From Rhizophagus irregularis (lineage: Eukaryota; Glomeromycota; Glomeromycetes; Glomerales; Glomeraceae): a stretch of 64,000 nucleotides of DNA. Every line of letters begins with the position of its first letter. The stretch's first letter is position 1. Below the pieces are notes generated by a model, which had not been told where the DNA came from, made no database searches, and saw only the letters and a program-made list of their open reading frames with translations. A program made the position numbers and the translations under genes. The stretch is from NCBI RefSeq assembly GCF_026210795.1, contig NC_089457.1, positions 2,976,001 through 3,040,000 on the forward strand, written 5' to 3'. Positions 21,713 to 35,710 of the stretch are shown here, piece by piece.

Positions 21713-22141
21713 TTTCACTAGTCAAAATAGGACAATTCGGCCTAAATTTGACCAGGTCGAATATAGGTCGAATGATGATCTAACCTGTGTCAAATTGAGG
21801 TCGAATTTTTGGGCACATTTAGGGTGCCAATCATCCAAAATTCAGACTAATTATTCAACCATTATTTAGGCTTAAATTGACCAATATTCGACATTAAAAC
21901 TTTAAGCCGAATTATGGTCTAACAACAACCCATTTATTTATGAATTTATTTCAATTTTTTTTATCAAATTTATTAAATAAATGTATTTATTAATACTTAA
22001 ATACTTTATAATTATATTATTATTATTGCATCTATCTAATTTACAAATAAATATTGCTAATTCAAATACAATTCTACAATTACATGATTCATATATTCGT
22101 ATATATGAATCTTTGATCATTCTTTGGCAATCCACCTGAAC

Positions 22142-22310
22142 ATATAAAAAAAGAGAAGAACGGTTAGTAACCGTTCATAATATTAAAAAAATAAGAAAAA
22201 AACCAAGATTTGTACTTACGAATCTTGGTTCCACTTTTCTGAAGATTGGAAGCCAACCCGAAATCTAAAAAAAGAAAGGAACGGTTATTAGTAACCGTTC
22301 ATAATAATAT
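22142..22310. repeat. 115-bp satellite, left remnant
   Basis: One full unit and part of a second, with palindromes GATTTGTACTTACGAATC and ACGGTTAGTAACCGT. The array is broken by the Maverick and resumes at 34,417. The last six bases (22,305-22,310, TAATAT) are the Maverick target duplication. Confidence 0.85.
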
Positions 22311-22751
22311 AGTAGTATGAAAACCCCAATTCTGGCTCACCCCCACCATATAATCTAATTACTACCACTTTATATAATCTAGTTACCACCATCATATAAC
22401 CTAATTACCACCACATAATCCACCTACCACTTTTACTATAATTCAACTACCACTTTCATATAATCTAGTTACCACCATCATATAATATAATTACCACCAT
22501 ATAATCCACCTACCACTTTTCATATAATCTAGTTACCATCATATAGTTTTATTACCACCATACAACTCTATTACCACCATATAATCTGAAAAATATCAAC
22601 CGAACAAGAAATAGGATTTCAAAGCTAACGGAGCCAAAAAAAGGTAAGGAATATTAACCCATCCAGGAAACCAGCCATGGAGTCAATAGAGCGGAATAGC
22701 AAGGCAAGCAATTACCCTTATACCGAGAAAAAATGTAATTGAATAAAAGGT
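22311..22751 (+). repeat. Maverick left TIR, 441 bp
   Basis: Matches the right TIR (33,976-34,416) in inverse orientation with one difference, near 22,625 (GCTAAC against GCCAAC). The outer half is built of degenerate units such as 'ataatctagttaccaccat' about 20-45 bp apart, possibly sites for integrase or terminal protein. The inner end carries a promoter-like motif. Confidence 0.95.
22728..22749 (+). promoter_or_regulatory. Element-specific promoter-like motif, copy 1
   Basis: The 22-bp motif, with core ATGTAATTGAATAAAAG, occurs three times, each time just upstream of an ATG. This copy is in the left TIR, 39 nt before the first ORF. The exact repetition outside the TIR, at 23,400, argues for function rather than mere TIR identity. 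Confidence 0.6.
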
Positions 22752-22788
22752 AGGTACCAAGTAACTATACAGATAAATAGTACATAAC

Positions 22789-23235
22789 ATGGTATATACC
22801 ACAGAAAAGTTAGCAACAATCTTTGGTTGCACAGTCTCCGATCTTATGGCTATCAATAGGGAAATCCTAAAAAGCTGTCAAACCCCGCACGCAGTATCAG
22901 CACTCCCCGAACTTGTAGGCCATATCCTGGAATACATTCCAAGTAGCAATTTCGGACCACATCTTCTAGAAGTCAGCCCAATCTGGAGAGCCGAAGCTGA
23001 ACGAATACTCTGGAAGCGGCATAAAGAAGCTGAGGAGGCATACGACAAAGCAGTAGAAAAGAAGGAAAAAGCAAATGATGCTCTTGGTCGATCAGAGGAG
23101 GAAGGTAATAGAAATCGTGACCTCCGTGAACTTGAATGGGAGGCATATCAAAAGGCTTGTAAAGAGAGAACAAATGCCGCAATAGAGCATTTTATAGTAA
23201 AAGAAGCTATTCGCCGTTGTAGCTTACAACTATAA
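22789..23235 (+). CDS. F-box-like protein with helical C-terminus
   Basis: 148 residues. Residues about 38-75 read 'LPELVGHILEYIPS' then 'LLEVSPIWRAEAERILW', the spacing of an F-box (LP.E...I...L.....l..vs..wr..a...lW). F-box proteins bind Skp1 and recruit targets to SCF ubiquitin ligases. From about residue 76 the sequence is charged and helical (EAEEAYDKAVEKKEKAND), probably coiled coil. I chose the first ATG after the TIR promoter motif. Downstream in the same frame, after three stop codons, an open acidic stretch (DSDDNPDDSDGEE, ending at 23,322) may be the lost original C-terminus. The F-box call rests on pattern only and is moderate. Confidence 0.65.
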   Translation: MVYTTEKLATIFGCTVSDLMAINREILKSCQTPHAVSALPELVGHILEYIPSSNFGPHLLEVSPIWRAEAERILWKRHKEAEEAYDKAVEKKEKANDALGRSEEEGNRNRDLRELEWEAYQKACKERTNAAIEHFIVKEAIRRCSLQL

Positions 23236-23399
23236 GTTACTTAAGGATAGAGAGTACATCGGGACGAGGATGTGCTCAGTGACTCAGATGACAATCCCGA
23301 TGACTCAGATGGTGAGGAATAGTTTAGGAAGACAGTACTAATATGTCTCCCTCTTTTTTTACCTCATAGGGTAAGCAGACAATTAATTTTTATTTTCAG

Positions 23400-23435
23400 A
23401 AAAAATGTAATTGAATAAAAGAGGAGTATAAAAAG
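23400..23435 (+). promoter_or_regulatory. Element-specific promoter-like motif, copy 2, with TATA-like box
   Basis: The core ATGTAATTGAATAAAAG is repeated exactly outside the TIR (23,400-23,421). It is followed at once by a TATA-like GTATAAAAAG (23,426-23,435) and, 8 nt later, the polymerase ATG. Confidence 0.65.
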
Positions 23436-23443
23436 TTTACAAG

Positions 23444-26400
23444 ATGTCAACACATCAAGCAAGAAGTGCCCAACACAGACAAGTCACCCGATCAGTTCTA
23501 GCTGAACTCAAGCAGGTACCTGTCAAGTCCATCCCATATCCCCGCTCAAATGCAAAATTGCAGGAATATGAGGATGAGATCCGCCAAATCCATGAAGCAC
23601 AAGCGGCGGTAACCAATGAAGAGATAACCCGCATGATGCAAATTGACCCAGACCCACATTATGAGGTAGTCTTTGAACGTCGTGATCAGGTACGTATAGA
23701 AAAGGAGTTAACAGACTCAAACTTTACGGCTGATATTGCTATAGGAACACCTGGAGAGCATGACTATGCTTCATTTCTTACAGCACACAGTCAAACAATC
23801 CAGAATATTCTTCAGGATGAAAGAAATCGATTGGGATCAATAAAAGTAAGAATTGGAATATTTGCCACAATAAGACGTTTAGATTCTTACCTTGAGGGAT
23901 TATTCGGAGATGGTAACTTTAGTGAAGATGATGGAGTAGAGTATATCTACAGATATAACATACCATTTAAAACTCACAATATGCCAATCCTACCATCAAC
24001 AGATATTAATGGTACATTTAACTTTGCATTAGCAAGAATCATGCAGAAAGTAGAAGACTATGTAAATTACGGATCAGGTTGGGAATTCTATCGTGTAGAA
24101 AAAATATTTATAGAAATCTCGCAATTCCAACCACCCACAGGAGCAGGACATATACCACTCCCAAAAGATCTTGCCATGAAAAAGGGAGTAGTAAATCCAG
24201 CTAATGATGACGACAAATGCTTCCAGTGGGCAATCCTAGCAGCATTACATCCAGTAGAAAAGAACGCAGAAAGAATTTCCAAGTATAAGGAGTATGTAAA
24301 TGAGTTAAACTTTGAAGGTATCGAATTTCCAGTACAAGCTGATGAGGTAATTCTAAGAAGATTTGAGCGACAGAACCCAACTATTGCCCTCTGCATCTGT
24401 GAATGGCGTGACCACCGCCTATGTCCAATATATGTTACCGATAGGGATGATGCAGAGGGCCGTAAAATAATAGATTTAGTACTTATCAGTAACGGGGAAA
24501 AGCAGCACTATTGCTGGATTAAGAATATGAGCCGTTTAGTAAATAAACGTACAAAAGATGGACATGCAACATTTGTCTGCCGATGGTGTATCTCCCACTT
24601 CACACATCAACAAGAAATCCATGACAAACATGTAGCAATATGTCGAGGATTAAAGAAAACCCCACAAGCAGACCGAATGCCATCAGTAAAGAAAGGAAAT
24701 GATATATATGAATTCAAGAACTGGAAACGCCGCATGCAAGTCCCATATTACTTTGTTGCAGACTTTGAAGCCCTAGTAATGGACATACCACCCACAGATG
24801 AAGACAAAGATAAGAAAACCAAGAAAGTACAAGAGCAAATCCCCTGCTCATACTCGTATATTAAGGTAAGATATGATGGTGTAAGTGAATCACAGAAGAT
24901 ATTTACAGGAGAAAATGCAGCACAAAAATTTGTAATCGAAATGCTAAATGAGGCTGAAGCAATCCGTAATGAATTCAGAAACCCAATGGAAATGATGCCG
25001 TTAACAACCCAAGAGCAAGCAAGTTATGATAATGCAATAAACTGCTGGATATGTCGCAACCCCTTAGATGGAAATAAAGTAAGAGACCACTGCCATATTA
25101 CAGGAAGGTATCGAGGTGCAGCACATAGAGGATGTAATCTTGACTTATCCATAAAACCTCGTGAAATGCATATCCCAGTAATCTTTCACAATTTATCAGG
25201 ATATGATGGACATATAATTATGCAAGGAATTGGTGCAATGGAATGTGAGGATGATATCGATCCTATCCCTTATAACATGGAAAAGTATATGGCATTCAAG
25301 TTAGGTTCCCTTCGATTTATAGACAGCTTACAATTCATGAAATCAAGTCTCGACAAATTAGCATCCAACCTAGGTGCAGAAAAATGTAGAGCACAAGAAT
25401 GTAGTAATCCACAACACTTATGGCGAATTGATGCAGGTAGATGCTTTGCACATCCCGAAAACTTTAAGATAACACGAAGTCAAATACCACCTGAATTACT
25501 CGAGATTTATCTTAAGAAAGGTGTCTACCCGTATGAATACATGGATGACTGGAAAAAGTTCGAGAAAACTAGTTTACCACCTAAAGGAGCATTCTATAGC
25601 AAACTTAATGAAACCCACATTAGTGATAAAGAATACGAATATGCACAGTATGTATGGGAAAAAGCAGGATGTAAAACAATGCAAGATTATCATGACATTT
25701 ATCTCAAAACTGACGTCCTCCTACTAGCCGATATATTTCAGAATTTCCGAGAAATGGCCTTGAAAAAATATGGGTTAGATCCTCTCTGGTACTATTCAAC
25801 ACCAGGCTTTACATGGGATGCACTATTCTTAATGACAGGGCAAAGATTGGATCTTATAACTGACCAGGACATGTACATGATAGTAGAACAAGGATTACGT
25901 GGTGGAATCTCTATGGTAAGTAAACGATATGCTCATGCAAATAATCCAGGTATGGGAGAAGGTAAATGGACCGCAGATAAGCCCAAGTCATCTATTCTAT
26001 ACTTAGACGCAAATAACCTATATGGATGGGCCATGTTGCAATACTTACCTACAGGTAACTTCCACTGGATAAAGGAGGAAAACGAGTTATCTAACATTCA
26101 AAGGCAATTAGAAAGTAATGAAATACCAGACGATTCTTCTGAAGGATATATCCTTAAAGTTAAACTGGAATATCCCCAAGCCCTCCATTCACAACACACA
26201 GATTACCCCCTTGCACCAGAACGAATGAAGGTTAAGAAGGAATGGCTTAGTAAAAAGCAGCAGGAAATAATAGCATGCTCAGGACAACGATACACACCCA
26301 CAGATAAGCTCATCCCTAACCTATTTGATAAGGATGAATATGTAGTTCATTATAGAAATCTCCAGTATTATGTTAGCCAGGGCTTAGTAATCAAGAAGGT

Positions 26401-27340
26401 CTATGAAGCTATAAAATTCAAGCAGGCTCCATGGATGAAACCATATATAGAATTTAACACCGCCGAACGTGCTAAGGCTAAGAATGATTTTGAGAAGGAC
26501 TTCTATAAACTCATGAATAATAGTGTATTTGGTAAAACTATGGAAAATCTCAGGAAACGTGTACGTGTCTCAGTAGTACAACCCCAAACCCATCCCAAGA
26601 AATATAAAAAGCTTACCTCAGATCCTGCATTCAAGGGTCGTAAAATATTCTCAGAAAATCTTGTTGTAATCCACTGACGAAAAGTGGAGGTAATGCTTAA
26701 CCGTCCAACATATGTGGGTATGAGTGTGCTTGACCTCTCGAAGCTCTGTATGTATCAATTCTACTATGATACTCTTAAGGTACGTTATAGTGAAAAAATC
26801 CAGTTATGTTATACAGACACAGACTCACTCCTCGTACAAATCCAAACTGAGGATATTAATGCAGACCTTATAGATATGGCAGACCAATTTGACTTCAGTG
26901 ATTATCCTAAAGATCATCCTGTACGAAAAGCATTAGGTGATAAGACTGACATAAATATGAAAATCCCAGGGAAATTTAAGGATGAATGTAATGGAGCAGT
27001 TATAGCAGAATTTATTGGCCTCCGCCCCAAAATGTATTCCATTCTCAAGGTAGGGGATGAGACCACCAATCCAAAACATGGTATCCGTAAAGCTAAAGGT
27101 GTCCCCTCAAAGGTAGTTAAAAAAGAGTTCCACCATGAGCGGTATAATAAGGCACTCTTTGATCCTAAACATAATGATACAGTTACCTTTAGAGCAATCC
27201 GATCTGATAGACATGCCATAAATGTTATAGAAATGTCGAAGGTGGGGTTATCCCCTATGGATGATAAAAAATGGATTGCACAAGATAATATCACAATGTA
27301 TGCACATGGAGATTATAGGATACCACAACTTGAAAATTAA
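23444..27340 (+). pseudogene. polB: Protein-primed family B DNA polymerase (Maverick type), one in-frame stop
   Basis: The frame spans 1,298 codons with a single TGA at codon 1078 (26,675-26,677); the same frame resumes at once. Replicative polymerase of the element. Order: a region with NANDDDKCFQW (C259) and HYCWIKN (H355, N361) that may be a cysteine-protease-like fold; a CxxC/H..H..C finger from C379; Exo I DFE (D440, E442); an HNH/endonuclease-VII-like segment (CWIC at 534-537, DHCHITG from 548) typical of Maverick polymerases; Exo II FHNLSGYDGH (581-590); Exo III KTDVLLLAD (D757); Pol A LDANNLYGW (D855); Pol B NNSVFGK (from 1025); and, beyond the stop, Pol C YTDTDS (D1125). The stop removes motif C, so unless it is read through the product cannot polymerise. 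All other motifs are intact, so the lesion is recent or a sequencing error. Its TAA overlaps the stop of the convergent integrase in a shared TTAA. Confidence 0.93.
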
Positions 27341-28407
27341 TATAATATATGAGTAGGAGGCAGCATAGTATCAGATGGCACAACTAATAATTCTTCTTGA
27401 GTAAATATTTTTTTAGGTCCATCAGATAACCTATATATAACCGGCTGCCCATCAACAACTGTGGAAGATTCAATTGTATAAACTTTAGTAGACCATATTG
27501 GATCAGTTGCACGTCTCCTACCTTGGTAATCTGAGTTATCAAGTAAGTATCTCACAAGAGAACCAGCTGGTAAACGTATTTCTTCTGCACCTACAGGTCT
27601 ATCCTTCCGAATTTTTGAAGGTAGTGCATACACTTGATCTTTCTGGATTGCCTCAACTGGAGACATACCTAGTAGACGAGTATTAGAATTATTTAGCTCA
27701 TTCACAATATCAGAAAGGTTCTTAACCCAGGCAGTATTCACACCTTCTGTAAGGAGTTCCTTTGCATCCTGTATTTTGAAAAGTCTCTCTGCTAAAGTTC
27801 GATTATACCGTTCAACAATAGCCTGACTCTTATGAGTAGTACCCACCCGAATACGTACACCTTTTTCATCCATTAATCGGATAACTTCATCCTTAAATTC
27901 TGATCCCCCATCTACTTGTAAAACTTTTGGCCAAATAAGCGGGCAGTCTGCTTTACCATAAATCTTTTTAAATGCCTTAGCAACACGTGCAGAGCTGCGA
28001 TCTTCTAGAGGTACTGAAGCTTTATATCGGCTAGCAACATCTACAATATTCAGACAGTATTTATACAGCTTTCTATCTACAGTATCATAGGGCATATATA
28101 AGATATCTGCTTGATGATACGTATTTGGTCGAGTAATCTTATTAAAAGAAACCTGTGGAACATACTTGGGTATAGGTGAGTGTATTTGCCATATAGCCTG
28201 TTTATGCAACCACTCTGTAATATCAGATATGTTAAAATCATGGCCCTCAGCTTGCACTTTAGCCCAAAGTTTTTCAGGAGTACGATAATATCCACATGGA
28301 TGGTAATAGATTTGTTGAAGGATATAATTTTGTTCGATTTGTTTATTAAATGTAGGGTCTATAAAAATCTGTGGAACTGGCAATGGAAGATACATCATTA
28401 AAGACAC
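27337..28407 (-). CDS. RVE-type integrase (Maverick class)
   Basis: 356 residues. Inserts the linear element DNA into the host genome. The N-terminal part has the Maverick pattern 'IYYHPCGYYRTPEKLW' followed by 'ITEWLHKQAIWQIH'. The RNase H-fold core carries the DDE residues D101 (HQADILYM), D166 (LQVDGGSEF) and E199 (AIVERYNRT). The C-terminus, from about residue 305, has 'DPIWSTKVYTIES' and 'VIYRLSDGPKKIF', like the chromo-like tail of these integrases. I see no clear HHCC zinc finger. The frame is intact. Its 5' end overlaps the divergent Gag ORF by 37 nt, so M1 may not be the used start; M4 (28,398) and M5 (28,395) are alternatives. Confidence 0.93.
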   Translation of the reverse strand: MSLMMYLPLPVPQIFIDPTFNKQIEQNYILQQIYYHPCGYYRTPEKLWAKVQAEGHDFNISDITEWLHKQAIWQIHSPIPKYVPQVSFNKITRPNTYHQADILYMPYDTVDRKLYKYCLNIVDVASRYKASVPLEDRSSARVAKAFKKIYGKADCPLIWPKVLQVDGGSEFKDEVIRLMDEKGVRIRVGTTHKSQAIVERYNRTLAERLFKIQDAKELLTEGVNTAWVKNLSDIVNELNNSNTRLLGMSPVEAIQKDQVYALPSKIRKDRPVGAEEIRLPAGSLVRYLLDNSDYQGRRRATDPIWSTKVYTIESSTVVDGQPVIYRLSDGPKKIFTQEELLVVPSDTMLPPTHILY

Positions 28408-31400
28408 AGATTACAAAGCTTGCACATACATTGCAATCACAAGAGCAATATATAAAATACCTGTATGGTGTAATCGAGGGTCATGAATCTGAGATAGAAG
28501 AACTTAGGCAAAAAAATGCTGAGTTGCGTGCAAAGCTTAAGAAAGCATTAGAAACGGCATCACTAAAGGAGGAAGGGCTTCAAGCATTAGAACGTCAGCT
28601 GATTGAAGTTGATACTCTAAATATTCAACTCAAAGATCGAATAAAAGAACTTGCTAATAGACAACGGAAAAATATGGCAGCAATTCCTCCTGACCCTATT
28701 ACAGAAATCTTAAATAATCGGACAACTATAGCAAATAGTATAGCTGGTATTCGTATTCACCTTGATCGTACAACTATAGCAGCACACCCTCATATAAATC
28801 ATTTATTTAACACTGCAAATGATAGTCTTGATGCCATTATCCGATATGCTAATGAGTTGCGAAATATTATAGAAGATCAAGATAATATGGAGGATAGACT
28901 TGAAGGTTTGTTAGATGATGCACATAACCGTGAAGAATATCTTAGACAAGAACTTAATAATACACGTGCTACTATACTAAGAACAAGACGTACCTATGAG
29001 GATGCATATGCAAATGAAGTGCGTCATCGCCAACATTGGGAAGGCCTTGCACAAAATACTCAGATCCAATTGGCTAACATCCAGGCTCAATTTGCTAACA
29101 GTCAAATCCAACTAGCTAATGTCCAGAGAGAATGTGATGAGAGTAGAATAAATGCTCATAGATTATTACAGCGCTATAATACTGAAACAGAGCGAAGTAG
29201 AAGGCGGGCTAATGGTATCATTCAGCAAGCTCGAGCATGGAGAGGGCAATTTTTAAACTGTCGCAATCATGGTCAAAATTTGCAAAATCAGGTCAATAAT
29301 TTGAATCAACAGATTCTAGCATTACAAAATAACCCTCCGGTAATACAACAACCTATAATGGCAGGATATGCACCTAAAAAATTTAGAGGAGCATCTGGTG
29401 AAGATCCAGAACTTTGGCTTCAAGAATTCAGGCAATGGTGTGAGTCTGCTGGACTTGATCCTGCTGCTAATGCTAGGACTCGTGTTAGGATTCATGGGAT
29501 CTTTGAAACTTTACTTGAAGATGATGCTAGAGATTGGTATGAAACACATATCAAAGGAAAAAATTGGGAATGTGTAAATCTTCTGGATAATACTGGTGTG
29601 GCCAATCTTGCTGCTTTTAATGCTTTGAATAATGCTGCTATACAGGCTGTAGCGGCGAATCAATTTCGTGGAGGGGCTGGTGTATTACATGGACAAGCAG
29701 CTGCAGTTAATACTATTACTGGTGCTAATTTTATACCTGATCATACTGTATGGGATGAAGATTGGTCAATAGTCGAGGGTCGTCCTACTGATATAGCTGT
29801 TAATAATCCTAATGCTAATAATGGAGGTACAATTGTGGCTCCTGGAATACGTATTGGACAATTAATATATCGTTTTAAGCATTACTTCCCTACTATAACA
29901 TCTGAAAAGTCTAAGCTTGCATTTAATGCTATTGTTCAGAGTAGTGATACTGTAAGCCGATTCTATTCTAAATTACGAAGAATGGTTAGACTTGCATATC
30001 CAACTCTTCCAGAGGTAAATCAGAATGAATTAGTACGGCAACAGTTCTTAAATGGTCTTTCCAGTGAAAATAAGTTGGATGCACGACGTATTGGTTTAGA
30101 AAATTCAGTTGCATCTATTCTAAATAAATTGGAAGAAGTTGAGAAATACAGGACAGATATGCCACCTACTCCTATAGTTACATATCAGGGTCCAACTTTA
30201 GCGGATATTGAGAATCTTATAAATTCTAAAATTCCTATGACTACGGCTAAATCATCTGCAGTACCAGTACCATCTTCTAGCCCATTTTCAAGTCCTCAAA
30301 ATGATACATCATTTCAGAGATTACTCGCTTTAGCATATAAATTAGGTCTTCCAAGAGATGTCGATATAAGCAAAGTAACCCTTAGTGATCTTGAAATATT
30401 CATTGATACAGAACTTAATAAAAAATTACCACCTGACCATATTTACCATGGTAATCAGGTATTTGGTATGAGCTCAGGTACACGCAAACCAAAGAAATCA
30501 AAGAAATGCTCAAGTTGTGGAAAATCTGGTCATACTAAGAGTTCCTGTCCAAAATCTAAGAAGGGAAAGAGGAAAACAAATTATGCACATGACTCCTCTG
30601 ATTCCTCTAACTCTTCTGACGCCTCTGACTCCTTTGACTCATCTGATAGTGATTCAGACTCTGGACATGCCTGCTATGGATTAAAAAAAAAGCCTACAGA
30701 AAGGAAACGTGTAGATAAAAAGCCTACTGATAAGAAAAAATCACAACTTGAAAGGCAGCGTATTATCTTTGAGGTTTTTATACAACTCTTAAAGCTTCTG
30801 GTTCAATCCTTCATTAATGCTGTACCAAAAGAGACTGTTATATCTGCTTACAATGCTCTGAATGCTGAATTCATTAATTATAAAGAACCAGTACTCAGTC
30901 AGCTTAAAGGAGAACCCTCGATAAAAACACGTGAAAAAGTTTGGGATAATGTTAAGGACCTTTTCACATCTATCCTTCATCCTATGATTTCGGTTGTAAC
31001 TAATAGTATGGCTGCAAATTTAATCCGTAAAAATGATGATGTTATATGTAATAATGACTTATGGTCTTCTATAGCAGGTATTGGAATTGTTAATCGCAAG
31101 TCTGCTAGTGATGTAGTCACTATTAAGACCAAAGTAGTCGCACCTGAGAGTGAAAAATCTTTAGTTATTCCTACGACAATTTTCGATACTGGTTCTGATA
31201 GTTCTCTGATATCTAACAATATTGTAAAGCGCCTAAATCTTGACGTTGATAGAAGTAATGCTCCTGACCTTAGTGGTGTTGCAACAAAATCTGATACTAT
31301 TGGGACAGTATATGGTCTTGGTATTCTTGTATATGATGGGGAGAACTCTAAAAAAATTGAAGATGACTTCATGGTTGTTAAGAGTGATAAGGACTTTTTA

Positions 31401-31592
31401 TTGCTAGGTGTACCTTGGATTGATCGTGCTAATGTCATTCTAGATTTCCAAAATCGGCAACTGACCATCCCTCTATCATCACGTAAAAAAATTACCATTC
31501 CAATTTCTCTACATAAACGGAAAACTAACGTGACTTCCTTGCAGATGGATACTATCGACTTAAAAAAAATTCACACTCTCGAGGAAGATTAA
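28371..31592 (+). CDS. Gag-like polyprotein with CCHC knuckle and aspartic protease
   Basis: 1,073 residues (1,069 if ATG 28,383 is used). Residues about 10-330 are largely coiled coil, Gln/Asn-rich towards the end. Residues about 335-600 resemble a retrotransposon Gag/capsid domain, with 'FRGASGEDPELWLQEFRQW' at the start and 'VSRFYSKLRRM' with 'QQFLNGL' late. A CCHC knuckle (C713, C716, H721, C726) is followed by a Ser/Asp-rich acidic stretch and Lys-rich linkers. A retropepsin-like protease starts at D939-T-G-S (IFDTGSDSSLIS) and ends with 'LLLGVPWIDRANVILDF'. No reverse transcriptase or RNase H follows. In LTR elements Gag forms the particle and the protease matures it; by inference this protein could supply particle and maturation functions to a Maverick lacking the usual ones. 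The frame is intact. A slippery run near the 3' end is annotated separately. Confidence 0.85.
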   Translation: MELAMEDTSLKTQITKLAHTLQSQEQYIKYLYGVIEGHESEIEELRQKNAELRAKLKKALETASLKEEGLQALERQLIEVDTLNIQLKDRIKELANRQRKNMAAIPPDPITEILNNRTTIANSIAGIRIHLDRTTIAAHPHINHLFNTANDSLDAIIRYANELRNIIEDQDNMEDRLEGLLDDAHNREEYLRQELNNTRATILRTRRTYEDAYANEVRHRQHWEGLAQNTQIQLANIQAQFANSQIQLANVQRECDESRINAHRLLQRYNTETERSRRRANGIIQQARAWRGQFLNCRNHGQNLQNQVNNLNQQILALQNNPPVIQQPIMAGYAPKKFRGASGEDPELWLQEFRQWCESAGLDPAANARTRVRIHGIFETLLEDDARDWYETHIKGKNWECVNLLDNTGVANLAAFNALNNAAIQAVAANQFRGGAGVLHGQAAAVNTITGANFIPDHTVWDEDWSIVEGRPTDIAVNNPNANNGGTIVAPGIRIGQLIYRFKHYFPTITSEKSKLAFNAIVQSSDTVSRFYSKLRRMVRLAYPTLPEVNQNELVRQQFLNGLSSENKLDARRIGLENSVASILNKLEEVEKYRTDMPPTPIVTYQGPTLADIENLINSKIPMTTAKSSAVPVPSSSPFSSPQNDTSFQRLLALAYKLGLPRDVDISKVTLSDLEIFIDTELNKKLPPDHIYHGNQVFGMSSGTRKPKKSKKCSSCGKSGHTKSSCPKSKKGKRKTNYAHDSSDSSNSSDASDSFDSSDSDSDSGHACYGLKKKPTERKRVDKKPTDKKKSQLERQRIIFEVFIQLLKLLVQSFINAVPKETVISAYNALNAEFINYKEPVLSQLKGEPSIKTREKVWDNVKDLFTSILHPMISVVTNSMAANLIRKNDDVICNNDLWSSIAGIGIVNRKSASDVVTIKTKVVAPESEKSLVIPTTIFDTGSDSSLISNNIVKRLNLDVDRSNAPDLSGVATKSDTIGTVYGLGILVYDGENSKKIEDDFMVVKSDKDFLLLGVPWIDRANVILDFQNRQLTIPLSSRKKITIPISLHKRKTNVTSLQMDTIDLKKIHTLEED

Positions 31593-31708
31593 CCTGTCAT
31601 CTATGTGGAGCAAGTTTTGACTTTCCCTCTAAGTTAAAGCGTCATCTTGCTAGGAAAAATCCATGTGTTTCCCAAACTTCTGCGGCAATGATGGGCAGTG
31701 GCGGGTAG
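31560..31708 (+). other. Candidate -1 frameshift extension with zinc finger
   Basis: Near its end the Gag frame reads TTA AAA AAA, containing A_AAA_AAA, a classic -1 slippery heptamer (31,561-31,569). The -1 frame is open through the Gag stop and encodes CHLCGASF..KRHLARKNPC, a C-x2-C-x12-H-x4-C finger, before ending at TAG 31,706-31,708. It could be a regulated C-terminal extension of Gag, or a once-fused domain cut off by a one-base indel in the A run. Confidence 0.45.
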
Positions 31709-31820
31709 TGACAGGGCAGTGCCCAAATTTTTTCGGCAGTGACGGGTAGTAACAGGGCAGTGCCCAAATTTTTTTGACAGTAACGGGCAGTAACAAGGTA
31801 GTGCCCAAATTTTTGGCAGT
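31707..31820. repeat. Tandem repeat between convergent genes
   Basis: Three imperfect copies of about 45 bp share 'cagtgcccaaattttt'. Two carry GGGCAGTGCCC, a near-perfect inverted repeat. The array separates the 3' ends of Gag (+) and the F-box gene (-), so it may help terminate either transcript. Confidence 0.7.
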
Positions 31821-31822
31821 TA

Positions 31823-32353
31823 CTAGTCTTTGCAAATATTACATTTACGTGTTACTCTGATTTCTAGGTCTTTACGGGTTTCTATAAGTTTATCAATGGC
31901 ATTTCCCTTGTCAAAATATCTCTGACTACATCTGATATCTAGCTTTTGAAGGTTTGGTAATATATGCAGGATTTCACTTAGCAAATCTCTAACGTCACCT
32001 TTTTCACCATAGTATTGATAATCTATTATGCTAAGTTCCTGGATATTGGGACAAGCTTGTAGCATTTTTACAATACAAATGGGCCATAATTTTACCCCAT
32101 CCATATTAAGCTTTCTGATATATTTTCCACATACTGTCCCTGGTTTTGTGAGATGTTTGTACATTTGGAACTCCTTAATATTATAGCGGTTATAAAGGTC
32201 TGTTTCACCCCATAGGAGAGAGTTTGCTACTACAGCCCATTTTCGACACACTAATGCAAAATTGCAAAGATAATGCCAACGGGAGTAAGTACCTTCATAT
32301 GAAGTTTTGAATATCTTTTCTAAAAGTTCGAAAGGTAAGCTATTGTTTGTCAT
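31823..32353 (-). CDS. F-box protein with LRR-like C-terminal half
   Basis: 176 residues. The N-terminus 'LPFELLEKIFKTSYEG' then 'CNFALVCRKWAVVANSLLW' is a textbook F-box. The C-terminal half has leucine-rich-repeat-like spacing ('ACPNIQELSIID', 'LPNLQKLDIR'), the usual substrate-binding partner. Host genomes of this group have very many F-box/LRR genes, so this is probably captured host cargo that could engage the SCF ubiquitin ligase. The C-terminus ends in CNICKD. Intact, no intron. It diverges from the gene at 32,458 across 104 bp. Confidence 0.85.
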   Translation of the reverse strand: MTNNSLPFELLEKIFKTSYEGTYSRWHYLCNFALVCRKWAVVANSLLWGETDLYNRYNIKEFQMYKHLTKPGTVCGKYIRKLNMDGVKLWPICIVKMLQACPNIQELSIIDYQYYGEKGDVRDLLSEILHILPNLQKLDIRCSQRYFDKGNAIDKLIETRKDLEIRVTRKCNICKD

Positions 32354-32355
32354 GG

Positions 32356-32371
32356 TATCTCATATGAGATA
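32356..32371. promoter_or_regulatory. 16-bp perfect palindrome, candidate operator
   Basis: TATCTCATATGAGATA lies 2 bp upstream of the F-box ATG, within the 104-bp divergent intergenic region. A dimeric regulator site is possible; chance cannot be excluded. Confidence 0.35.
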
Positions 32372-32457
32372 TTGATGGAGAAGTTTTATTTAATTAGATT
32401 TTTTCTTAGGATAAAATAATTTGAACATTTCTTTTCTATCAATAGAAAAAACCAAAC

Positions 32458-33249
32458 ATGCTTACTTTTAGTGAACTTACTCCATCTCTTACTGTTACTG
32501 AATTTAAGATCAATGTTGAAGGGCTTGATTACACCGTGCTTGGTCATAAGCTTGAACCTACTAAGGATGTTATTGCCATTAATAGCAACTTTATTCATAA
32601 AGCTTTTGAGGGTTATGAACAGTACTTGTCTAAACCAAAAGGTGAGAGGCGATGCAGACGAAGTACACCTGACAATCCATTAAATAGACGGCGACGTACA
32701 GGGGATGGTAGCACTTTTAATGCATGCATTGAGTTTGTTATCATCTTAGCTGATACTGTACATACTATTCGTTATTTTCCTAAATCTGGTAGTATACAAG
32801 TTTTCGGGTCTTTTGATCCTGTTGCTATCTTCTTACGTTACCTTTCTGAATGTTCCCTACCTGAATTTTCTTCTGTAGAACTTGTGGGTGAAAATAAGGC
32901 TCTCCTGTGCAATTATAAATTTGTGATTAATATTGGGGGTGATAAGTTTATTAATCTTTCTACCTTAGCATATGCTTTAGAATCTATAGATGGTATTCGT
33001 GAGATTCTTCCCTTTCCGATAAAGTATATTAAGAATGATGCAGGTGATATTCATTCTAAAATTGCTATAATCTTTACTTCAAAGATTCGGGTACATATCT
33101 GGCCTAAATCTGGTAAGGTTAATATATTTGGCACTAAGACTGAATTGGATGCTGATATGGTTTATAAGTTCTTACAGAAGTTGTTTTCTAATCCGAATGA
33201 TTTTGGGGATTTTATTTGTGATGCACCTATTCCAGATTGCGAGAGGTAA
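32458..33249 (+). CDS. Two-repeat protein, possible TBP-like fold
   Basis: 263 residues, family not recognised by name. Two internal repeats align: about residues 92-135 (FVIILADTVHTIRYFPKSG, then SIQVFGSFDPVAIFLRYL) and about 202-245 (IAIIFTSKIRVHIWPKSG, then KVNIFGTKTELDADMVY). The pattern of a beta hairpin, 'F/WPKSG', beta strand, 'FG', then a helix resembles the half-repeats of TATA-binding proteins and their large-DNA-virus relatives. A basic patch (RRCRRSTPDNPLNRRRR) precedes repeat 1. If right, it would be an element-encoded transcription or DNA-binding factor. The gene is intact, without introns, and convergent with the next gene 20 bp away. Confidence 0.6.
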   Translation: MLTFSELTPSLTVTEFKINVEGLDYTVLGHKLEPTKDVIAINSNFIHKAFEGYEQYLSKPKGERRCRRSTPDNPLNRRRRTGDGSTFNACIEFVIILADTVHTIRYFPKSGSIQVFGSFDPVAIFLRYLSECSLPEFSSVELVGENKALLCNYKFVINIGGDKFINLSTLAYALESIDGIREILPFPIKYIKNDAGDIHSKIAIIFTSKIRVHIWPKSGKVNIFGTKTELDADMVYKFLQKLFSNPNDFGDFICDAPIPDCER

Positions 33250-33269
33250 AAAAATGGTTTCACTGAAAA

Positions 33270-33953
33270 CTAGAAACCCTCTATTTGTAAAATCCAGCAA
33301 TCGCATTCATGACTTCTTGTTGGCATAAGACATTCGTCACATAGAGTTATAGCCAACTCATTTTTTAGCCTATCTAGCTGACTCTCGGTGGTTGGTGCAA
33401 GATTTTGGTAGTATTCATTGAATTCATTCTGCTCTTCTTCATTTATGTCTTCATCTGTGTCTTCATCTGTGTCTTCGTCCATATCTTCATCTCCTTTAAT
33501 ATGGTAGATGCTGAATTCATTTCTATATTCATCATTAGGATTTGTGAATATTCTTTGTATATTGTAATCTATAATGTTGAATGTTGTAGGTTTCTTTTTT
33601 GATAATATTTCTACTAAGTCTAATAATGCATATGCTAATTCTTTATCCTCTGAGAAGTTCTTAATGATATCTGAAAATCTTTCATATATTGCCATCTCAT
33701 CTGGTAGAATAGAATATCTTATTCGTGATAAAAGTGATGGATGTATCCATATATCATCACCTTCTAACATCTCATCAAATATTTCTACTAGCTCTTCTAA
33801 TCCAGATACTAACATACTTTCTTTGCTAAATTCGGAATCTAAAGCTTTTAAATATGCTATATCTAAATACCACATTATTTCCTTTACCCATTCTTCTATG
33901 TTGAGTTCAAACTGACCTAGTATACGTCTTAGTGATGGTCTGTATTGTGACAT
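33270..33953 (-). CDS. Acidic protein of unknown function
   Basis: 227 residues, not recognised. The N-terminal two thirds are predicted helical ('LEELVEIFDEMLEG', 'ALLDLVEILSKKKP'). Residues about 154-172 are a degenerate D/E repeat (DEDMDEDTDEDTDEDINEEE). The C-terminus has CDECLMPTRSHECDC, a compact CxxC..HxCxC set that could bind zinc. It starts 24 nt inside the right TIR promoter motif, mirroring the first gene at the other end. Intact, no intron. Confidence 0.7.
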   Translation of the reverse strand: MSQYRPSLRRILGQFELNIEEWVKEIMWYLDIAYLKALDSEFSKESMLVSGLEELVEIFDEMLEGDDIWIHPSLLSRIRYSILPDEMAIYERFSDIIKNFSEDKELAYALLDLVEILSKKKPTTFNIIDYNIQRIFTNPNDEYRNEFSIYHIKGDEDMDEDTDEDTDEDINEEEQNEFNEYYQNLAPTTESQLDRLKNELAITLCDECLMPTRSHECDCWILQIEGF

Positions 33954-33975
33954 CTTGTAAGTCTTTTATATGTGA

Positions 33976-34416
33976 ACCTTTTATTCAATTACATTTTTTC
34001 TCGGTATAAGGGTAATTGCTTGCCTTGCTATTCCGCTCTATTGACTCCATGGCTGGTTTCCTGGATGGGTTAATATTCCTTACCTTTTTTTGGCTCCGTT
34101 GGCTTTGAAATCCTATTTCTTGTTCGGTTGATATTTTTCAGATTATATGGTGGTAATAGAGTTGTATGGTGGTAATAAAACTATATGATGGTAACTAGAT
34201 TATATGAAAAGTGGTAGGTGGATTATATGGTGGTAATTATATTATATGATGGTGGTAACTAGATTATATGAAAGTGGTAGTTGAATTATAGTAAAAGTGG
34301 TAGGTGGATTATGTGGTGGTAATTAGGTTATATGATGGTGGTAACTAGATTATATAAAGTGGTAGTAATTAGATTATATGGTGGGGGTGAGCCAGAATTG
34401 GGGTTTTCATACTACT
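33976..34416 (-). repeat. Maverick right TIR, 441 bp
   Basis: Inverse of 22,311-22,751 with one difference. Near-identity means either a young insertion or gene conversion between ends. The TAATAT duplication follows at 34,417-34,422. Confidence 0.95.
33978..33999 (-). promoter_or_regulatory. Element-specific promoter-like motif, copy 3
   Basis: The same core ATGTAATTGAATAAAAG, on the minus strand at the inner edge of the right TIR, 24 nt before the ATG of the 227-residue ORF. Confidence 0.6.
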
Positions 34417-35710
34417 TAATATTAAAAAAAAATAAAAAAAATAAACCAAGATTCATACTCACGAATCTTGGTTCCACTTTTCCAAAGATCGGAAGCCAAC
34501 CTGAAACCTAAAAAAAGGAATGGTTATTAATAACTGTTCATAATAACATTTAAAAAAAAATAAACCAAGATTCGTACTTACGAATCTTGGTTTTCTGTTC
34601 TTCATGAACCTATAAAAAGAAAGAAAGAATGGTTAGTAAACTGTTCGTAATAATAAAAGAAAAAAAAATATATAAATTCGTACTTACGAATCTTTGGGTT
34701 TTTCTGTTCTTCAGAAGCCCACACGACCTATAAAAAAAAAATACAAGAATGGTTAGTAAACCGTTAATAATAAAAAAATAAAATAAAATAAATACAAAAT
34801 TCGTAAAAACAGTCTTACAAATCTTTGGGTTGTTCCATTTTTCGGAAGCTCACCTGACTTATAAAAAAAAAGAAAGAATAGTTAGTAAACTGAACCATTT
34901 GTAATAATAAAAAATAAAAACATTAAAGATTCGTACTCGTACTTACGAATCTTTGGGTTTTTGTTCTTCGAAAGTCCACCCAAACCTATAAAAAAAAAGA
35001 AAGAATGGTTAGTAAACCATTTGTAATAATCAAAAATAAAAAAATTAAAGATTCGTACTTACAAATCTTTGGGTTTTCATTCTTTGGAAGCCCACCCAAA
35101 CCTATAAAAAAAAGAAAGAATGGTTAGTAAACCATTTGTAATAATCAAAAATAAAAAAAATTAAAGATTCATACTCGTACTTATGAATCTTTGGGTTTTT
35201 GTTCTTCAGAAGCCCACCTGAACCTATAAAAAAAAGAAAGAATGGTTAGTAAACCATTCGTAATAATCAAACATAAAAAAAAATTAAAGATTCGTACTTA
35301 TGAATCTTTGGGTTTTCGTTTTTTGGAAGCCTGCCCAAACCTAAAAAAAAGAAAGAATGATTATTAGTAACCATTCATTAATATTAAAAAAAAATTGAAG
35401 AAAAATAAACCAAGATTCGTACTTACAAATCTTGGTTTTTCTTTTCCGAAGGTCGGAAGCCCACTCCACTCGATCCTAAAAAAAAAGAAAGAATGGTTAT
35501 TAGTAACCATTTGTAAAAAAAACCAAAAAAAGAAAACCAAGATTTGTACTTGTACTTACGAATCTTGGTTTTCCGTTCATCAGAAGTTCACCTGAACCTA
35601 TAAAAAAAAGAAAGGAACGGTTAGTAAACCGTCCATAATAATAAAAAAGAAAAAAAAATTTAAGATTCATAATATAATACTACTTACGAATCTTAAAAGT
35701 ACGTCCTTCA
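34417..35710. repeat. 115-bp satellite array, about 11 units
   Basis: Units of about 112-127 bp each hold two palindromes, GATTCGTACTTACGAATC and a variant of ACGGTTAGTAACCGT, separated by a conserved 'gaagcccacc' segment and 'cctataaaaaaaag'. It continues the left remnant at 22,142-22,310. Short ORFs within it are not genes. Confidence 0.9.

Follow-up and report, generated by a model that had tools for sequence, protein, structure and literature searches.

Results

A Polinton/Maverick element with a Gag-protease gene

We analysed a stretch of 64,000 nucleotides from the Rhizophagus irregularis genome (contig NC_089457.1, positions 2,976,001 to 3,040,000; hereafter the window), in which positions 22311-34416 hold a 12,106-bp element that, judged from its ends and genes, is a Polinton/Maverick transposon and that carries a Gag-protease (Gag-PR) gene of retroelement type. 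The element is bounded by terminal inverted repeats (TIRs) of 441 nt each (22311-22751 on the plus strand, 33976-34416 on the minus strand) that are 100% complementary; it begins with AGTAGTATG and ends with CATACTACT, termini of the AG..CT type, and a 6-bp TAATAT duplication lies on either side of it (22305-22310 and 34417-34422). AG..CT ends and a 6-bp target-site duplication are hallmarks of Polintons/Mavericks. Nine further copies of the family start with AGTAGTA at both ends and, when the window copy is counted with them, the target-site duplication is 6 bp long in six of the ten, 5 bp in two, 7 bp in one (read by eye) and absent in one. Each TIR contains an array of 11 copies of a 25-nt unit (at least 72% identity; 22343-22598, mirrored at 34129-34384), many of which have CATATAATCTA-like (TATAAT-like) cores.

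The first-pass annotation of the window had named a Maverick/Polinton here from the AG..CT ends, the 441-bp TIRs, the TAATAT duplication, PolB and an RVE integrase, all of which we recovered. It had also counted seven open reading frames (ORFs), a figure that stands if the two pieces of PolB are taken as one gene and becomes eight ORF pieces otherwise. ORFs fill 94.4% of the interior and the largest gap between them is 230 bp. The PolB gene is present as had been claimed, but is broken in the window copy: a first part with DANNLYGWAM, NNSVFGK and exonuclease-type motifs (23444-26677, plus strand) is closed after 1,077 codons by an in-frame TGA (26675-26677), and the remaining 220 codons of the frame (26678-27340, plus strand) contain the YTDTDS motif. 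Because the TGA lies upstream of YTDTDS, the polymerase of this copy is probably dead; one of ten other copies has a stop at the same codon and nine do not, some of them having stops elsewhere. The sequence assigns the polymerase to the protein-primed type of family B: PolB aligns at 45% identity or more to relatives carrying DNA_pol_B_2 (PF03175), although Pfam itself returns for the first piece nothing beyond a sub-threshold Endonuclease_7 match. The RVE integrase that follows (352 aa, 27337-28395, minus strand; triad D97/D162/E195 assigned by eye) is recognised by Pfam rve (37.8 bits; cut-off 32.6). PHROGs gave nothing beyond weak transposase-type matches for this protein, and as a query it found no relatives among viral contigs.

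The Gag-protease gene

Head to head with the integrase, the two first ATGs overlapping by 13 nt (28383-28395), lies the Gag-PR gene, which encodes 1,069 aa from its first ATG at 28383 (28383-31592). Along the same plus strand follow a capsid-like (CA-like) region (residues 325-597, 29355-30173), a CCHC zinc knuckle, CSSCGKSGHTKSSC (residues 709-722, 30507-30548), a gag-pro junction, CYGLKKK, over an A-run of variable length (30672-30692) and the DTGS of a retropepsin-like protease (residues 935-938, 31185-31196). For the window protein, the Retrotrans_gag, zf-CCHC and aspartyl-protease matches all fall below the Pfam cut-offs. Among 17 aligned Gag-PR proteins, matches at E≤0.1 were obtained to Retrotrans_gag in 11, to zf-CCHC in 11 and to aspartyl-protease in 14, and the protease of a second family described below scores 30.5 bits against a cut-off of 24.3. 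The CA region was modelled as a retroviral capsid-type domain, and a second structural look at it gave no match to other folds, a result that does not exclude them. A search of PDB sequences with the Gag profile returned 19 rows (E 0.0013-0.94), mostly CCHC proteins (TUT7 as the best, nucleocapsids, Arc1 and Copia), together with two rows for the DDI1 protease and a single unrelated one; the second-family protease returned DDI1 (E 0.037). Sequence and model together support a Gag with a CA fold, a CCHC knuckle and a retropepsin, weakly so for the window protein taken by itself. Homologues of this Gag numbered 27 among 7,994 scored candidates, including R. irregularis and Paraglomus brasilianum, and the Gag profile found no relatives among viral contigs.

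It had been claimed that this ORF, with its Gag-like region, CCHC and DTGS, comes without a reverse transcriptase (RT), and this was confirmed: none of the eight ORF pieces of the window element matched an RT family in Pfam, and RT and RNase H were not found in the element, whose interior is accounted for by other ORFs. Long terminal repeats (LTRs) are likewise absent. Gag-PR and a Gypsy-type integrase nonetheless make up a retroelement set, and R. irregularis has recently expanded Gypsy elements (PMC8647823). An RNA stage, in which Gag would package the transcript, the RT of another element would copy it and PolB would be secondary, could be imagined from these facts; however, the element ends in inverted repeats and not in LTRs, and its PolB is under selection (see below), and we hold such a stage to be improbable.

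The A-run of the gag-pro junction (codons 764-770) has nine bases in 16, ten in 12 and eight in three of 31 distinct copies, and a run of nine alone keeps the protease in the Gag frame. Among the Gag homologues, P0026 stops 12 residues and P0025 three residues past the KKK, and others, such as P0009, P0015 and P0019, continue into the protease. The second family has a stop between Gag and PR, which form two ORFs of one frame; the 16 near-full-length rows of this protease have frames of 305-331 aa, three of them with internal stops. The pattern at the junction may reflect retroelement-like recoding, and is also what homopolymer mutation or assembly error could produce.

Gag is a regular part of the family

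The R. irregularis genome that was searched comprises 146.7 Mb in 32 contigs, and the window proteins match R. irregularis database entries at up to 99% identity. Ten other TIR-bounded copies were read, and in all of them the gene order is that of the window element: ORF1, PolB, integrase, Gag, F-box, ORF7, ORF8; the copy on C28 is decayed and that at C7:3049908 has a partial left TIR. Linking genome-search rows within 6 kb of one another gave 50 clusters, the counts from which are lower bounds because the searches score part of the candidates (43 of 603 for Gag). Gag is present in 28 of the 29 clusters that hold both PolB and integrase, and PolB or integrase stands beside each of the 36 scored Gag clusters. 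The single PolB and integrase cluster without Gag (C7:4126132-4135106) is followed 6.7 kb further on by a cluster of integrase and Gag.

Ratios of nonsynonymous to synonymous substitution (dN/dS) were calculated for nine copies against the window copy, the C28 copy being left out. They were 0.32 and 0.29 for Gag and 0.22 for PR; the two pieces of PolB had values of 0.25 and 0.10 and the integrase one of 0.25; ORF1, F-box, ORF7 and ORF8 gave 0.35, 0.47, 0.55 and 0.10. Since its values are similar to those of PolB and the integrase, Gag looks to be under selection like the replication genes.

The first-pass annotation had taken Gag to be a constituent of the element, and the census bears this out; Gag is present in the ten other copies read, and two short TIR pairs showed no Gag among the scored rows (43 of 603 Gag candidates). 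These two short copies, and nothing else, speak for the idea that Gag-PR is a fragment of an LTR retroelement that landed by chance in the window copy. The census refutes it, the conserved copies, the recurrence of the pair in a second family and the dN/dS values also go against it, and we give it practically no credence. A secondary insertion of Gag was rejected on the same-order copies and the cluster census.

The integrase/Gag-protease pair recurs in a second family

The window integrase query also finds genome rows at 37-54% identity. One such locus, C8:5072892-5084718, is an 11.8-kb element of a second family, with TIRs of 912 bp (910 of 912 positions identical) and AGTAGGA ends; in this copy, the one that was read, the flanks match over 5 bp. 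It has an intact PolB frame of 1,376 aa, an integrase, and Gag and PR placed head to head with the integrase, the overlap at the first ATGs being 19 nt (L051 4488-4506). Its PolB is 34% (first part) and 33% (second part) identical to that of the window and its integrase 48%; in Gag-PR the identity is 34% in the N-terminal part of Gag (E 7e-48), 27% in the nucleocapsid region (E 4e-15) and 29% in PR (E 2e-32). With the second-family PR as query, a protease row was found within 8 kb of 43 of the 70 other-family integrase rows and none for the other 27, and all 43 integrase/protease pairs are divergent. PolB of the second family has nine full-length rows in the genome, and pieces of a third-family PolB on C14, C4 and C22 are 61-78% identical to it. 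The integrase/Gag-PR pair therefore looks older than the split between these families. On the genome sequence, Polinton-class transposons of at least two families thus contain a conserved and apparently selected retroelement-type Gag-PR. The head-to-head overlap in both families also leaves no room for a promoter between integrase and Gag.

Search for a capsid module

In neither the window family nor the second family was a major capsid protein (MCP), penton, packaging ATPase or Ulp1-type protease recognised. No ORF of the window element is a double-jelly-roll MCP, PolB, integrase, Gag-PR and ORF7 being assigned otherwise; with these identities and an interior that is 94.4% ORF, there is no room for such a gene. 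The argument rests on ORF occupancy because Pfam, whose silence is weak evidence, also misses the presumed capsid of the Polinton-like viral contig L052 (IMGVR_UViG_3300007522_001028). The penton is less firmly excluded than the MCP, ORF1 (148 aa) and ORF8 (227 aa) having no assigned identity. The presumed L052 MCP, queried against the genome with no positive control, found nothing. Others have looked for an MCP in five R. irregularis strains and report none (PMC10640383), strains among which the window's assembly may not be included. No Pfam match to a Ulp1-type (adenain) protease was obtained with any window ORF piece, and ORF1 and ORF8, with no assigned identity, remain candidates; no genome-wide search was made for it. 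A Pox_A32 match is absent from the inside of 15 TIR-bounded elements (11 of the window family, four of the second). The earlier claim that no capsid or ATPase gene can be recognised has thus held up.

A beta-rich candidate for a jelly-roll protein, ORF7 (263 aa, 32458-33249, plus strand), was rejected as such, its predicted structure (pLDDT 88) being of the TATA-binding-protein (TBP) type. Compared with the PDB, the model gave 41 rows at E≤0.001, 33 of which name TBP in their titles; the other eight are six RNA polymerase initiation or transcribing complexes and two rows (3eik) entitled 'double stranded DNA binding protein'. The ORF7 profile found no match among PDB sequences. Among named BFVD entries the model is most similar to the B263R homologue of Abalone asfa-like virus (E 5.5e-18, TM score 0.75 both ways, 22% identity). 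An asfarvirus-like insertion of 1.5 Mb has been described in R. irregularis strain 4401 and is absent from four other strains (PMC10640383), and it is possible that the ORF7 gene was acquired from an asfarvirus-like virus or reflects a virophage-like tie to one. ORF7 might bind the TATAAT-like repeat array of the TIRs. Its homologues in the genome number 64 rows (69 of 69 candidates scored). One Gag and one ORF7 homologue occur on 7,818-base contigs of the same source, perhaps a single contig.

A further explanation, an ordinary Polinton in which the capsid genes have diverged beyond recognition, is made thinkable by Pfam, which misses the PolB as well as the presumed capsid of L052, and by the uncontrolled L052-capsid query. 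The interior, however, has no gap above 230 bp and its large ORFs are otherwise identified, the beta-rich candidate proved to be a TBP fold and the published search of five strains found no MCP, and we judge this explanation very improbable.

ORF1 (22789-23235, plus strand) is coiled-coil-like by eye in its C-terminal part; it has no Pfam match above cut-off, and an F-box reading of it, suggested by eye, was dropped when Pfam gave no match. An F-box protein of 176 aa is encoded at 31823-32353 on the minus strand (F-box-like, 28.6 bits, cut-off 24.3), and each of the ten other copies examined also has the gene, in decayed form in C28. ORF8 (33270-33953, minus strand) is acidic. Three copies of a 41-bp repeat separate Gag-PR from the F-box gene (31694-31816), and diverged tandem repeats with a spacing of about 105-130 bp flank the element on both sides (22141-22300 and 34428-34999).

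Discussion

Our analysis supports, at the level of genome architecture, the earlier reading of this element as a Polinton with a retroelement-like Gag-PR. We consider it probable, though by no means settled, that Gag-PR stands in place of the jelly-roll capsid, the penton and the Ulp1-type protease and forms particles around DNA. Under this model, Gag-PR would have replaced the capsid module before the two families split. PolB would copy the element as linear DNA, and Gag, with its coiled coil, CA and CCHC nucleocapsid, would assemble intracellular particles holding the DNA of the element or its replication complex, which the aspartic protease would mature. Recoding at the gag-pro junction may set the ratio of Gag to Gag-PR, and the integrase, whose gene lies head to head with that of Gag, would insert the DNA with a duplication of 5-7 bp.

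Some observations call for caution. In the 9.8-kb TIR pair at C6:1851788-1861549, PolB and ORF7 but neither integrase nor Gag were found among the scored rows, and in the 5.6-kb pair at C23:462913-468529 there is ORF7 and no PolB, integrase or Gag. We read both as internal deletions, the latter probably being a non-autonomous deletion form. In addition, an A32-like match lies within 5 kb of 19 of the 70 other-family integrase rows, on the same strand in all 19 cases, and 12 of these 19 integrase rows also have a protease row. A packaging ATPase may therefore survive in some relatives, and the earlier claim that the morphogenesis module had been replaced should be made with caution for the clade as a whole. 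The A32 label comes from the genome search with PF04665 (Pox_A32), which gave 88 rows above cut-off and also has matches in two of 14 named cellular control genomes; it is at odds with a report of no A32 in five R. irregularis strains (PMC10640383). In L054, a 137-residue piece of one A32-like ATPase, a Walker A motif and an hhhED stretch can be picked out by eye, but FtsK_SpoIIIE was matched weakly (E 0.23), PF04665 was not matched, and comparison with the L052 ATPase gave nothing usable. Should the A32-like matches prove to be packaging ATPases, a packaging motor would be combined with a retropepsin-like protease in some relatives.

Retropepsin-like protease and Pox_A32-type matches occur together at 12 loci with an integrase and at 16 with no integrase row nearby (for example C8:1667787-1673432, C23:432430-437942 and C1:1439508-1442779). 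For 16 of the 20 weaker protease rows, an A32-like match lies on the opposite strand at a distance of 2.5-3.0 kb.

No envelope, packaging ATPase or exit gene was recognised in the window and second families (A and B), the long coiled-coil N-terminal part of Gag is conserved between them, and no relative of Gag was found among viral contigs. These points would suit a Gag-PR kept for a capsid-free job: a nucleoprotein or scaffold joining PolB, integrase and DNA ends, a nuclear carrier of them, or interference with competing LTR elements. But the CA-like fold, CCHC knuckle and protease have been retained together under purifying selection, and it is difficult to see why an element that forms no assembly should keep a maturation protease. 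We regard a capsid-free role as a serious possibility but one that is rather unlikely.

If Gag-PR does form particles around the DNA of the element, there would have been a direct exchange between the two great shell types within one replicon, and we would learn what MCP-less fungal Polintons did after the loss of their capsid. Such particles should be findable in R. irregularis, which grows in root-organ culture. More tentatively, and with the odds against it, these elements would make up a clade, in mycorrhizal fungi, that deserves to be called retro-capsid DNA viruses, in which PolB-copied DNA is housed in retropepsin-matured Gag particles with gag-pro recoding, an A32-type ATPase acts on a retroviral-type capsid in some lineages, and a giant-virus-type TBP drives transcription from the TATA-like arrays of the TIRs in the window family.

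Among known systems, Ty3/gypsy elements (Metaviridae) are the closest in their Gag-PR, with a CA-like fold, one CCHC knuckle, a DTGS retropepsin and possible gag-pro recoding. They differ from the window element, in which no RT/RNase H was found, which has no LTR and a family-B DNA polymerase, and whose likeness to them yields weak Pfam scores only. A fungal Ty3 element may have been the source of this Gag. The Ginger DNA transposons are TIR elements with a Gypsy-type integrase, for which the accessible text describes 4-5 bp duplications and no polymerase or Gag-PR (PMC2836005). The viral contig L052 has a related PolB (36-39% identity); some of its ORFs are read as capsid, ATPase and penton, with no Gag among those listed, and Pfam names no capsid there and sees the ATPase through weak P-loop matches only. 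With Polintons/Mavericks, typically 15-25 kb long (PMC6431247) against 12.1 kb here, the window element has in common a family-B polymerase, an RVE integrase, long TIRs and mixed gene orientation, and it differs in that Gag-PR is present and MCP, penton, ATPase and Ulp1-type protease were not found. A limited search of the open-access literature brought up no Polinton described as carrying Gag; the search covers neither subscription papers nor Repbase; Mavericks figure among the recently expanded or newly curated transposable elements of R. irregularis, with no mention of Gag in the accessible parts of these papers (PMC8647823, PMC11075540). The loss of MCP, protease and ATPase together has been described for nine of 72 Polintons of one set (PMC4028283), and MCP-less Polintons are reported from Glomus intraradices (= R. 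irregularis), Phytophthora, Trichomonas and Entamoeba (PMC7805220). The MCP-less Polinton of G. intraradices is probably the same element as that of the window or a sister to it. As an MCP-less Polinton of R. irregularis is already in print (PMC7805220), what is new is the Gag-PR: the published cases are described as a loss, whereas in the window element Gag-PR would have taken over from the module that was lost.

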